Shown here in pieces: positions 10,271 to 24,661 of a DNA stretch of 25,031 nucleotides. Source of the DNA: a virus; the IMG/VR virus record IMGVR_UViG_3300005265_000034, positions 1 to 25,031 of that record. One strand, 5' to 3'. How positions within the stretch are numbered: position 1 is the stretch's first letter; each line of letters begins with the position of its first letter. Under the pieces are notes generated by a model. That model was not told the origin of the DNA. It did no database searches and saw only the letters and a list, made by a program, of their open reading frames with translations. Made by a program: the position numbers and the translations under genes.

Positions 10271-11412
10271 CAGTATCCGCAGAAACCAATAAAGTCACTT
10301 ATGATTGTGACGGCGAACAAACAGAGTTCTCATTCAATTTTAAGGTCTTCAAGAAGACTGACCTCAAAGTTGTTGTTGCAGATTCTGCCGGAAATGAGAC
10401 AGTCTTGGCCTTAACAACTGACTACACTGTTTCCGGAAACCTGAGCGATGGAGGTAAGATAACAACTGTTGCTACTTGGCCGTCCGGATATACGATCACA
10501 ATTACCCTGGACATGGACTTTGATCAGCCGACTGACCTGATCTATGGGGGCTCTTACTCCTCTGAGGCTGTTGAGACCATGGTGGATCGTGCAGTCAAAA
10601 TGATCCAGCAACTTGTTGTGGCCTCCAACAGGTCAATTCTCCTGAAAATATCTTCGGCACTCTCAGGCCTGGAACTTCCTGATCCCGAAACCGGCAAATG
10701 GTTATACTCCCCTGATGGGGAAACCCTCCAATGGGCCTCCACGGCAGACCCAGACACTTTGGCTGTGTCGGATTTTGTCAAGACACTCCTGGATGATGCT
10801 ACGGCCTCCGCTTTCCTTACAACCCTGGGATTTTCCGCTTTCGTCAAAACCCTCCTGGATGATGAAGATGCTGCCACTTTCCTCACGACCCTGGGAATAG
10901 ACACGGACTTGCTAACCTTTGCCCTGCCTGCTAACACAACCATCTCGGCATTCATCAGGACTCTTCTGGATGATGCCAATGCTGCTGCCGCCCGCACCAC
11001 TTTGGGTTGCCCGACTGATCCTGCTGCTGAAACTGCCGGTCTAAGGACATTGGGGACCGGAGCGCAACAGGCCATGCCCGGAAATTTTGCGAGTGCAAAT
11101 GCTATCATAAAAGCCTGGATATCCTTCAATGGCACAGGCACCATCGCAATCCTCAGTAGTTTTAACGTGGCATCTATAACAGACAATGGAACAGGTGACT
11201 ACACGGTTACCTGGGATACTGACTTTGCAAACGCTAACTATTGTGCTACAGGAATGACAGGAGATGAAAGTGGGGATCAGAGGGCCGCCCAAGTATTCAT
11301 CCAGGCTTGTGCTGCCGGAAGCCTTCGTATAAGGACCAAACAAGATACTGGGAACGACATTAACAGTCATGACTACAATCGAATCAATGTGATGGCGATA
11401 GGAGCACAGTAA
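10267..11412 (+). CDS. Tail fibre protein with T7-fibre-like N-terminus
   Basis: Translation starts at GTG 10267, which shares its bases with the previous TGA (GTGA). The 381 residues begin with a T7-fibre-like attachment domain (about 1-125: NKVTYDCDGEQTEFSFNF, then a DYTVSG...GGKIT pattern and EAVETMVDRAVKMIQQL). Residues 169-247 carry three copies of a shaft repeat, (S/A)(D/A)F(V/I)(K/R)TLLDD-x(2,3)-A...TTLG. The C-terminal 100 residues (KAWISFNGTG...FNVASITDNGTGDYTV) form a small tip domain that I recall at the end of many phage fibres. The tip is the likely receptor-binding part. The protein is shorter than T7 gp17 (553 aa). Confidence 0.85.
   Translation: MTVSAETNKVTYDCDGEQTEFSFNFKVFKKTDLKVVVADSAGNETVLALTTDYTVSGNLSDGGKITTVATWPSGYTITITLDMDFDQPTDLIYGGSYSSEAVETMVDRAVKMIQQLVVASNRSILLKISSALSGLELPDPETGKWLYSPDGETLQWASTADPDTLAVSDFVKTLLDDATASAFLTTLGFSAFVKTLLDDEDAATFLTTLGIDTDLLTFALPANTTISAFIRTLLDDANAAAARTTLGCPTDPAAETAGLRTLGTGAQQAMPGNFASANAIIKAWISFNGTGTIAILSSFNVASITDNGTGDYTVTWDTDFANANYCATGMTGDESGDQRAAQVFIQACAAGSLRIRTKQDTGNDINSHDYNRINVMAIGAQ
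10771..11007 (+). repeat. Tail fibre shaft repeats (three coding copies)
   Basis: Within the fibre gene, residues 169-188, 190-210 and 228-247 repeat the pattern F(V/I)(K/R)TLLDD-x-A...TTLG. The first two copies are directly adjacent and the third follows an 18-residue linker. Repeats of this kind build trimeric fibre shafts and can expand or contract by recombination. Confidence 0.75.
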
Positions 11413-14578: not shown

Positions 14579-15177
14579 AAGGCCTCCTCATATTTTTCCT
14601 TTCCGGCAAACTCATCCACTACCGGATAAGGGCTAACTTTCCCTTTGACCACATTCCCTGCTGTAGTCATATCACCCAAAAACAGGATCATCTTACTTGG
14701 GTCATGTAATCCTGCTGCTGGGTGATAAACCGGAATGTGAATGAAACTCAGCCCCTGGAAAAATGCCGGGCGGGGAATCCCATGCTCTAACTCTATACTG
14801 AACTTGGGACCTGCTAATACCTGACCAGCTATTTTCCCGACAGTGATAACCCACTGAGGTTGTACCTCCTGGAGTTTGGGGATAAGGTGAGCCTCAACAC
14901 AGTTCTTGATTTCCTGCGTTTTGGGGTCACGGTTCCCTGGTGGGTGGCACAGGCACACATTAGTAATGTAAACCCCAAACCGGGGAAGACCATTCATCCT
15001 CAAAGCATGTCGTAACTCATCCCCACTAACCCCCACAAAGGGCCGTCCGGTTAAGTTTTCTTGAACTCCGGGGGCCTCCCCGATTAGAACAATAGAGGGT
15101 AAGGCATCCCCAAAGAGTTCTCCGTTTACGATCTTCTTCCGGGAGGCTACCAATTCGGGGCAGAGGTTACAGGTCAT
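14575..15177 (-). CDS. Family 4-type uracil-DNA glycosylase with Fe-S cysteines
   Basis: The 200-residue protein has the UDG core: GEAPGVQENLTGRPFVG (33-49) is motif 1 with its substrate-binding loop, ITNVCLCHPPGNRDP (71-85) is the central motif, and HPA (152-154) is motif 3. Cys3, Cys6, Cys77 (or Cys75) and Cys93 sit where family 4 enzymes bind a [4Fe-4S] cluster. Family members remove uracil from DNA. In this operon with polymerase and nucleases it probably takes part in phage DNA repair or base-identity control. ATGA overlaps occur with both neighbours. Confidence 0.88.
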   Translation of the reverse strand: MTCNLCPELVASRKKIVNGELFGDALPSIVLIGEAPGVQENLTGRPFVGVSGDELRHALRMNGLPRFGVYITNVCLCHPPGNRDPKTQEIKNCVEAHLIPKLQEVQPQWVITVGKIAGQVLAGPKFSIELEHGIPRPAFFQGLSFIHIPVYHPAAGLHDPSKMILFLGDMTTAGNVVKGKVSPYPVVDEFAGKEKYEEAL

Positions 15178-17884: not shown

Positions 17885-17910
17885 GTTTTTGGCCTCTCAA
17901 TAATCCAATT

Positions 17911-17953
17911 ATTATAATCCGAATGCTTATAGCAAAAGCATCCGGATTATAAT
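17911..17953. repeat. Large near-perfect inverted repeat between SSB-like and downstream genes
   Basis: Two 18-nt arms (17911-17928 and 17936-17953) are complementary except for one A/C position, with a 7-nt loop ATAGCAA. Each arm ends in ATTATAAT, so TATAAT can be read outward on both strands. It occupies the 90-bp gap between the genes at 17884 and 17975. No U-tract follows on either strand. It may be an RNA processing or stability hairpin in the leftward transcript, a regulatory operator, or a weak terminator. Confidence 0.6.
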
Positions 17954-17974
17954 AAATATGTGAATGGACTTATA

Positions 17975-22096: not shown

Positions 22097-22335
22097 TAAA
22101 AATTGTCTCCGGAATCAAATTCCGGCTCAAGCAGTTTTCGGAAATATTCCTGAATTGCCTGTCTGGAAAGTTCTCTGTCCCCTTTGGGACAATTTCCAAA
22201 AGCTAAAACTCTGTCAAACTCCAGTTCTGTTACAGTCCTGAAGTTCAAAAGCTTAGAGATTGCTGTGAGTGCAATCCTTTGATTACACTCACAAGCTTTT
22301 TCAGACATTTTGCATTTCCGGGGGGCACAAAACAT
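22093..22335 (-). CDS. Cys-rich small phage protein, 80 aa
   Basis: ATG 22335 overlaps the TAA of the clamp-like gene (TAATG). The N-terminus has MFCAPRKCKMSEKACECNQR, with Cys3, Cys8, Cys15 and Cys17, and FGNCPKG further on, which could make a small zinc-binding site. A second start at ATG 22308 would keep only part of that cluster. The rest is helical (RELSRQAIQEYFRKLL). I recall similar Cys-x4-Cys...Cys small proteins in phages, function unknown. Confidence 0.65.
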   Translation of the reverse strand: MFCAPRKCKMSEKACECNQRIALTAISKLLNFRTVTELEFDRVLAFGNCPKGDRELSRQAIQEYFRKLLEPEFDSGDNFY

Positions 22336-23350: not shown

Positions 23351-23710
23351 TTAGTTGCGAAACCAGTAATCTACACCGTCAAAGTCTACACAAAAGTAGT
23401 CTGCTTTCAGGTCCTGGGCGGCCCATTCCCAGTCAATGCAGTACAACGGCCAATTGGAGATATCTTGTACTGCTCCTATGTCTTCAGCGAGTTCCTGGGC
23501 ATACTGTTTAAAGTAGCTATCCCTGATTAAGGTTTCTCCATACTCCCAGTCAGGGGAGCGGTCTGCTTGTTCTGCAAGGGATGTCAAAATGTCCAGTTCT
23601 TCCTGTTCTTCGGGTTCAAGTAGATCATCTTCTGCGCGTTCGTGGAGTTCCACAATACGGGCAATAATGTCTCTGCTATCAATTATGTCTTGGGAATTAT
23701 CAACGATCAT
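23351..23710 (-). CDS. Acidic conserved phage protein, 119 aa
   Basis: ATG 23710 has GAGGGGG 7 nt upstream. The protein is very acidic. It has IIDSRDIIARIVELHE near the start, then WEYGETLIRDSYFKQYAQELAEDIGA, and ends with DWEWAAQDLKADYFCVDFDGVDYWFRN. This layout recurs in early regions of phages and mobile elements, sometimes annotated as antirestriction-like because of its acidity and DNA-mimic look. I consider that label unproven. The tandem hairpin region lies just upstream of it. Confidence 0.75.
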   Translation of the reverse strand: MIVDNSQDIIDSRDIIARIVELHERAEDDLLEPEEQEELDILTSLAEQADRSPDWEYGETLIRDSYFKQYAQELAEDIGAVQDISNWPLYCIDWEWAAQDLKADYFCVDFDGVDYWFRN

Positions 23711-23737
23711 CTTTGTACCCCCTCATAAAATGCCCGA

Positions 23738-23814
23738 ATCAGGAGCGGAGAACTTATCCATGTCCTGATCCAGGCTAAACAATTGCCACCATGGAGAATC
23801 TATCCGCCTGGCAA
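23738..23814. repeat. Two tandem hairpins with shared core and different stems
   Basis: Hairpin 1 (23738-23769): ATCAGGA pairs with TCCTGAT, enclosing GGAGAACTTATCC at 23747-23759. Hairpin 2 (23783-23814): TTGCCA pairs with TGGCAA, enclosing GGAGAATCTATCC at 23793-23805. The 13-nt cores differ at only two adjacent positions (CT versus TC) and lie 46 bp apart, whereas the closing stems have unrelated sequences yet both pair. The elements fill most of the 112-bp gap upstream of the 119-aa gene. Confidence 0.65.
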
Positions 23815-23822
23815 CTGCTGTC

Positions 23823-24194
23823 TTACTTGTCATAGTAATCTTTCCGGGAATCCCAGTTGGCATAGAAACCATCGGTTATACCATCTTCAAACACTCCCCA
23901 AACGTCAAAAGAGGCTACTTCATCCAAGGCTTTGAGTTCATGGCAAAAGAACTCAAATGGAGAAAACTGTCGGTTACTAACTTCTGCACTATAGCAGATG
24001 GATATGAATACTTCCTGGGCGTCCTCCACGTTCTCAATGATTCCGGAGAAACCGTCTACCATAAAGCGTGGTATCTCTGTTCCAATTTCGGGTAAGTCCT
24101 GCCAGGAGGCTATATTATAGCCTCTCTCAAAGCCTTCTTCATATATCTGCTTTTCAAGCATTTTGTATCGCAGCTCAGTGGTTACTTCAGTCAT
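23823..24194 (-). CDS. Acidic conserved phage protein, 123 aa
   Basis: ATG 24194 has GAGGAGGT 5 nt upstream, located inside the preceding 20-codon ORF. The protein is acidic, with YKMLEKQIYEEGFERGYNIA near the start and NRQFSPFEFFCHELKAL in the middle; the F-S-P-F-E-F pattern recurs in phage early proteins of this size. No catalytic motif, no membrane segment. It is the first full-size gene of the leftward operon. Confidence 0.75.
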   Translation of the reverse strand: MTEVTTELRYKMLEKQIYEEGFERGYNIASWQDLPEIGTEIPRFMVDGFSGIIENVEDAQEVFISICYSAEVSNRQFSPFEFFCHELKALDEVASFDVWGVFEDGITDGFYANWDSRKDYYDK

Positions 24195-24249
24195 GGTTTA
24201 CCTCCTCTTCCGGCAATGTTACAATCTCTCTAATCGTGAATTGTTTCAT
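24187..24249 (-). CDS. Leader-type small ORF, 20 aa
   Basis: ATG 24249 has AGGAGGT 6 nt upstream and the frame ends at TGA 24187, 8 nt inside the next gene. The peptide is MKQFTIREIVTLPEEEVNHD. The Shine-Dalgarno of the next gene is inside its codons EEEV, so its translation would open or block that site. It may be a real microprotein, or a translational-coupling leader. Only the ribosome site supports it. Confidence 0.5.
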   Translation of the reverse strand: MKQFTIREIVTLPEEEVNHD

Positions 24250-24464
24250 TATCCTTACCTCCTGAGATTGTGTTTGTCTTTTGTCAATTAACTCCTGCAC
24301 AAGTCATGCCAAACACAAGAGAGTGACAGGAAATAATAACAATAACAGTACGTTAAAAGGAAATTGCTACAGTAAGCAAGTATTTTTGGCATTGGTTAAG
24401 AATCTCCAACAGTTTGCCAGGATATTAAGGGGAGAAAGTGAGAAAGGAAGTGAAAAAGTAACAG

Positions 24465-24493
24465 AGTATTGGGAGGTTAAAAGTAATAGTCAA
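24465..24493 (-). promoter_or_regulatory. Candidate early leftward promoter beside operator-like repeats
   Basis: On the - strand TTGACT (24493-24488) and AATACT (24470-24465) are separated by 17 bp. The -35 matches 5 of 6 and the -10 4 of 6. The TTAGCCAA palindrome and direct repeat lie directly upstream, at about -43 to -90 from the expected start. This position suits activator binding or looping repression of the early operon. Confidence 0.4.
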
Positions 24494-24509
24494 AGTAGAC
24501 TGGTCAGAA

Positions 24510-24525
24510 TTAGCCAATTGGCTAA
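24510..24525. promoter_or_regulatory. 16-bp perfect palindrome TTAGCCAATTGGCTAA (operator-like)
   Basis: The 16 bases are their own reverse complement and consist of two inverted TTAGCCAA half-sites. Two further direct half-sites are at 24528-24535 and 24584-24591. A dimeric HTH protein is the expected type of binder; the XRE-type regulator at 20184-20372 is a candidate, by inference only. Confidence 0.6.
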
Positions 24526-24554
24526 AGTTAGCCAATACGTAATCAGAGTACGTA

Positions 24555-24573
24555 TGTGTAACCAAGTTACACA
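24555..24573. repeat. Inverted repeat TGTGTAAC-CAA-GTTACACA
   Basis: Eight-base perfect arms with a 3-nt centre. It lies between the two direct repeats and is flanked on the left by two TACGTA palindromes (24536-24541 and 24549-24554), giving a dense run of dyads typical of control regions. Confidence 0.65.
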
Positions 24574-24661
24574 CTGGTCAGATTTAGCCAACACGTACAA
24601 GTACCTGTACAATTCACCACACATTACCTGTAGTCACTAATTCAACCCATAATCCCCTGAA

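Follow-up and report, generated by a model that had tools for sequence, protein, structure and literature searches.

Two adjacent inverted repeats with a common central sequence and unrelated arms, lying between two genes of a phage, raise the question of whether they form a functional element and, if so, whether it acts as RNA or as DNA and on what. They occupy positions 23738-23814 of the window, i.e. the whole 25,031-nucleotide stretch of DNA analysed here (IMG/VR record IMGVR_UViG_3300005265_000034). The window carries a T7-like podophage: its rightward genes include those for the tail tubular and internal virion proteins, and its leftward genes those for DNA polymerase A, a UDG, an ERCC4-type nuclease, a Sak4-like protein and a helicase. 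It is contig C50 of a genome bin (995 kb, 57% complete), which is taken as the host by assumption. The repeats are flanked by two leftward genes. The upstream one (23823..24194, minus strand) codes for a 123-aa protein with no family match and no assigned function, whose only relative is its counterpart in a near-identical phage contig. The downstream one (23351..23710, minus strand) codes for a 119-aa protein, and the preliminary description had correctly placed the repeats just upstream of it. By sequence comparison this protein is an ArdA-like antirestriction protein, a membership based on PHROG matches (phrog_25535, 2.5e-29; phrog_2059, anti-restriction protein, 5.4e-7) and on phage homologues: tblastn recovers matches in 27 phage records annotated as ArdA-like, the family alignment agrees, and its start, MIVDNSQDIIDSRDIIAR, coincides with that of the ArdA-like family. 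Against the Pfam ArdA profile the window protein itself gives no match and its relatives only weak ones, and none of the solved structures matches the protein.

The sequence of the repeats is as first reported. The two cores (23747-23759 and 23793-23805; 46 bp apart, start to start) read GGAGAACTTATCC and GGAGAATCTATCC on the plus strand and GGATAAGTTCTCC (23759-23747) and GGATAGATTCTCC (23805-23793) on the minus strand, and both closing stems are present, namely ATCAGGA/TCCTGAT (23738-23769) and TTGCCA/TGGCAA (23783-23814). Read as leftward RNA the stems are longer, reaching 13 bp (23732-23775) and 11 bp (23778-23819), and two hairpins separated by two bases are recovered in both the MFE and the centroid structure. 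Hairpin 1, the 5' one on the leftward RNA (23778..23819, minus strand, with its core at 23793..23805), is predicted to have an 11-bp lower stem AGCAGUUGCCA/UGGCAAUUGUU, a 3x4 internal loop, a 3-bp GGA/UCC upper stem and a 7-nt loop, UAGAUUC. Hairpin 2 (23732..23775, minus strand, with its core at 23747..23759) is predicted to have a 13-bp lower stem GCCUGGAUCAGGA/UCCUGAUUCGGGC, a 2x1 internal loop, a 4-bp UGGA/UCCG upper stem and a 7-nt loop, UAAGUUC. The two thus have GGA(UANNUUC)UCC in common and are unrelated in their lower stems, bearing out the earlier claim of two hairpins with one loop and different stems.

Both hairpins are real as predicted minus-strand folds. The minus-strand RNA of the gap between the 123-aa and 119-aa genes folds at -42.3 kcal/mol (z -3.25), with two of 200 shuffled versions being equally stable, and the plus-strand fold of the hairpin stretch reaches -29.3 kcal/mol (z -2.0). 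A hairpin pair with a common core arose 72 times in 4731 dinucleotide-shuffled windows, i.e. about 0.015 per window, by a criterion set after the element had been seen (two hairpins, each of at least 6 Watson-Crick bp, within 40 bp of each other and with a core match of 11/13). Stability alone does not set the pair apart, because about 4% of the 96-nt windows of the early region have z below -3, part of them being coding sequence. Two further minus-strand stretches, 22206-22301 and 14646-14741, form very stable hairpins within leftward genes (GC-adjusted z of -5.1 and -4.5) and are more stable for their composition than the tandem pair. In sum, the early operon of this phage holds a tandem RNA hairpin that is real but ordinary-looking and as yet unclassified.

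The sole relative that we found is the phage contig IMGVR_UViG_3300013103_001005, which is 98.3% identical to the window across 4.8 kb. Over the 88-nt element it differs by seven substitutions: two in loop 1, one between the hairpins and four in the stems, with three of the last in hairpin 2. Those in loop 1 make both loops identical (UAAGUUC), while those in the stems are G-C/G-U or A-U/G-U exchanges, such that all 31 of the 31 pairs are kept in both phages. On the leftward RNA each of the five pairs that are not Watson-Crick is a G-U, whereas the rightward RNA would hold just 26 of the 31. The substitution pattern in this one comparison therefore favours a leftward RNA, yet it is not covariation: no pair is changed on both sides, four are changed on one side and still pair (two sequences giving such a count little power), and the two-sided compensation by which selection for a structured RNA is recognized is not seen between window and relative. 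Four arbitrary substitutions would rarely spare all pairs (P 0.003), but four random transitions would do so with P 0.13. The description of the stems as compensatory hence stands as regards the retained pairing, also in a relative that has the flanking gene, and fails as regards compensation proper. Likewise, its choice between a structured RNA and a protein-recognised DNA hairpin leans toward the leftward RNA by the pair counts above, on a conservation that rests on two sequences; the evidence for that conservation is thin because the single relative is 98% identical.

Searches for further copies point to a lineage-specific element, known from the window phage and this near-identical relative only. 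Rfam 15 gives no match at the gathering score in the window and none at E-values up to 10 in 23650-23900. A covariance model of the element, the test originally proposed, gives clear scores only for the window itself and the near-identical contig and finds no other phage with the element. With the relative in reverse complement the model reaches 32.6 bits, as the mutual symmetry of the cores leads one to expect. Among 80 ArdA-like loci, one of them the near-identical contig, the core is present in none of the 79 others, the upstream folds of 14 having been inspected. The element is also absent from the genus and phylum relatives of the assumed host genome, and the right arm of the window, used as a DNA query against the phage collection, returned no match. 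A contig with a 51%-identical helicase (L137) ends short of the hairpin region. Across viral contigs and the genomes of 84,980 species the tandem core pattern yields nothing beyond chance except the near-identical phage, and in searches with two flanked single cores the closing stems of the matches are no better than chance. Several matches were set aside: those in Bacillus fonticola and Nostoc look like repeat arrays, probably coding repeats; those in contigs L130 and L132 are DnaA-box-like arrays; others are single chance sites. In the Bacillus fonticola genome NZ_CP052135.1 a 20-bp unit, GCGGATATATTCTCCTGACC, is repeated in large, probably coding arrays that resemble the tandem core pattern. 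The virus-like contig IMGVR_UViG_3300025794_000001 was likewise rejected as a relative: it has palindromic sites but lacks long closing stems. Its two intergenic pairs of TGTGGATANNTTCTCCAC-like palindromes (L010 962-1022 and L012 7833-7882), one of them directly upstream of a TATA-like stretch, look like an operator pair, and their match to the core is probably due to chance.

Taken together, we tentatively favour the reading, in which our confidence falls somewhat short of even, that the hairpins act in cis, within the leftward early mRNA of this T7-like podophage, as a dual binding or processing site that affects the ArdA-like message. Two adjacent stem-loops would display one recognition module, GGA-UANNUUC-UCC beneath an asymmetric internal loop, with lower stems that need only pair, whatever their sequence. 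Unrelated stems that carry a common module are the expected mark of a recognised hairpin, and here the module is presented twice. The candidate recogniser might be an RNA-binding protein of the phage, an RNase of the host (RNase III, for example) or the RNA polymerase, and its recognition of the paired modules would set the stability or translation of the antirestriction message. Sequence data bear out the pair of hairpins, the preference for one strand, what the downstream gene is, and the pairing kept in one relative; transcription across the site, a bound protein and an effect on the antirestriction gene are inferred. Sequestration of the ribosome-binding site was considered and rejected: the hairpin pair ends 21 nt upstream of the start codon, and the Shine-Dalgarno-like GAGGGGG of the ArdA-like gene (23718..23724, minus strand), 7 nt below hairpin 2, is unpaired in the predicted ensemble (pairing probabilities 0.03-0.20), making simple sequestration unlikely. 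The routes that the predicted fold leaves are protein binding, processing, or coupling through an open 36-codon frame described below, with a dual binding or processing site being the likeliest. Against any cis-acting RNA stand the hairpins of equal or greater stability that other parts of the leftward operon contain, partly within genes, the ArdA-like genes of other phages that lack the element, and the open frame that crosses the hairpins. Antirestriction proteins must act once the phage DNA enters the cell, and the timing of their expression matters for the success of infection; a compact RNA element placed immediately ahead of one of their genes would offer a control point. At present this one amounts to a leader element that is plausible but narrow, specific to its lineage and common in its general type.

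That general type has several precedents. Guanidine-II (mini-ykkC) RNAs likewise consist of small hairpins in tandem, constant in a loop or bulge and variable in their stems. The pan motif is comparable: it, too, sets two small hairpins in a leader position, keeps a loop or bulge constant and lets the stems vary, and tandem pan RNAs have been interpreted as a dimeric protein-binding site (PMC2864571). Both differ from the window element in their conserved nucleotides and downstream genes, and no Rfam match links it to either. The STAXI motif (RF01728) consists of repeated structured units often found beside antirestriction genes (PMC2864571), but STAXI units are pseudoknots and the window element has no Rfam match even at an E-value of 10. 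A further parallel is the put RNA in the early operon of the lambdoid phage HK022, with two stem-loops in about 70 nt (PMC9378689): the likeness, one of architecture only, lies in two adjoining stem-loops in the leftward operon, here 88 nt long and two bases apart, and the difference in that both stem-loops here share one loop.

The foremost competing explanation is that the stretch is coding. An open 36-codon frame, MTSKTAVARRIDSPWWQLFSLDQDMDKFSAPDSGIL, spans both hairpins (23723..23833, minus strand): its ATG at 23833 lies 11 nt within the 123-aa gene, overlapping the stop of the latter, and its TGA (23725-23723) precedes the ATG of the ArdA-like gene by 12 nt. The supposed 112-bp gap in a packed operon, though correctly located between the 123-aa and 119-aa genes, therefore need not be empty and may be filled by a putative 36-aa ORF, so that a coding role for the stretch is possible. 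Such a small gene might have the hairpins as an incidental feature or by-product of its sequence, or serve as a leader ORF that opens the hairpins when translated and is coupled to the antirestriction gene; this we consider rather unlikely, though to be taken seriously. The tight junctions with both neighbours speak for it, as do the persistence of the frame in IMGVR_UViG_3300013103_001005 despite 11 substitutions and the occurrence of strong hairpins within other genes of the leftward operon. However, these substitutions fall 3/5/3 across the codon positions, without the third-position bias seen in neighbouring genes (9/7/22 in the 123-aa gene and 1/2/6 in an 82-aa gene), and the peptide has no relatives by tblastn or in PHROGs or Pfam. 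Further, the two copies of the core fall in different frames (GG|ATA|GAT|TCT|CC and G|GAT|AAG|TTC|TCC), and coding constraint thus cannot produce the repeated core; the objection named at the outset, a core conserved only through a coding frame, therefore does not hold for the repeat, even if the stretch may still code.

With the dual binding or processing site as the preferred reading, the remaining alternatives concern what would recognize the hairpins and at which level. The early RNA of T7 is processed at hairpins with internal loops between early podophage genes, and a pair of such intercistronic processing sites of the RNase III type, setting transcript ends and stability, would suit a window with T7-like tail, internal virion and DNA polymerase A proteins, an antirestriction gene near the early operon start and a second intercistronic hairpin (17909-17955, where a near-perfect inverted repeat of 20 bp enclosing a 7-nt loop separates two leftward genes). 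The upper stems of 3-4 bp and lower stems of 11-13 bp are nonetheless short for RNase III, and processing neither needs nor leads one to expect a near-identical loop in both copies, leaving this account unlikely. A DNA-level element, in which two quasi-palindromic sites (GGA-K-AA-N-TT-M-TCC) bind a protein as an inverted pair, is a little harder still to sustain. It can draw on the symmetry of the cores, each of them quasi-palindromic: the 18-nt core regions GCGGAUANNUUCUCCAUG and CAUGGAUANNUUCUCCGC are mutually reverse-complementary at 15 of 18 positions (with one G-U in the window), five of them flanking positions at which a match does not follow from the quasi-palindromic core (P 0.0017), and this count of 15 is the same in the relative despite its GA/AG change in loop 1. 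Intergenic pairs of TGTGGATAAATTCTCCAC-like palindromes also occur in a viral contig of another kind. An operator, however, needs no long outer stems of unrelated sequence, no sigma-70-like promoter is called in the gap, and the confinement of the non-Watson-Crick pairs to G-U on one strand is as expected for RNA. The same complementarity could serve a put-like antitermination RNA acting on the elongating polymerase, or an attenuator in which a partial terminator (hairpin 2 and the AUUUUAU trailing it) is switched by alternative pairing of the cores. Its general architecture, the AUUUUAU tail and the stability of the duplex of isolated cores (-18 to -20 kcal/mol) are in its favour, but the terminator scan makes no call despite that tail, nothing ties the window phage to lambdoid phages, and the long hairpin formed by paired cores reaches -23 as against -42 kcal/mol for the two local hairpins; we regard it as improbable. 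Core pairing would consequently need loop-loop contact or help, and the predicted structures would allow such contact between the hairpins. A bolder combination, to which we give comparably little credence, is a new class of phage regulatory RNA whose complementary 18-nt loop regions lock together by pairing loop to loop (or rearrange into a single long hairpin), with the 36-codon leader frame timing antirestriction expression early in infection. A CsrA-type pair of sites is very improbable: each hairpin has a GGA motif, the two lying 46 nt apart, and ACAUGGAU in hairpin 2 is close to the CsrA consensus, but GGA pairs with UCC in both predicted hairpins rather than being looped out, hairpin 1 fits poorly, and CsrA was not found in the assumed-host bin (57% complete) or in five further genomes, a set that comprises five members of the host genus and one of the same order.

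Beyond the element, a noncoding region upstream of the leftward genes (24485-24640) is rich in palindromes (TGGTCA/TGACCA and TTAGCCAA) and has four inverted repeats in a row; at the corresponding place (~1880-2180, reversed) the relative has about 55 extra bases made up of additional TGGTCA...TGACCA units, a pattern resembling a variable operator array. A possible 20-aa ORF, MKQFTIREIVTLPEEEVNHD, with a strong AGGAGGU Shine-Dalgarno sequence overlaps the start of the 123-aa gene (~24187-24252, minus strand). The contig end (24930-25031) is CA-rich and of low complexity with a run of G, probably an assembly or sequencing artefact. In the tail-fibre gene, three 63-nt direct repeats with 65-76% identity are found at 10768-11007.
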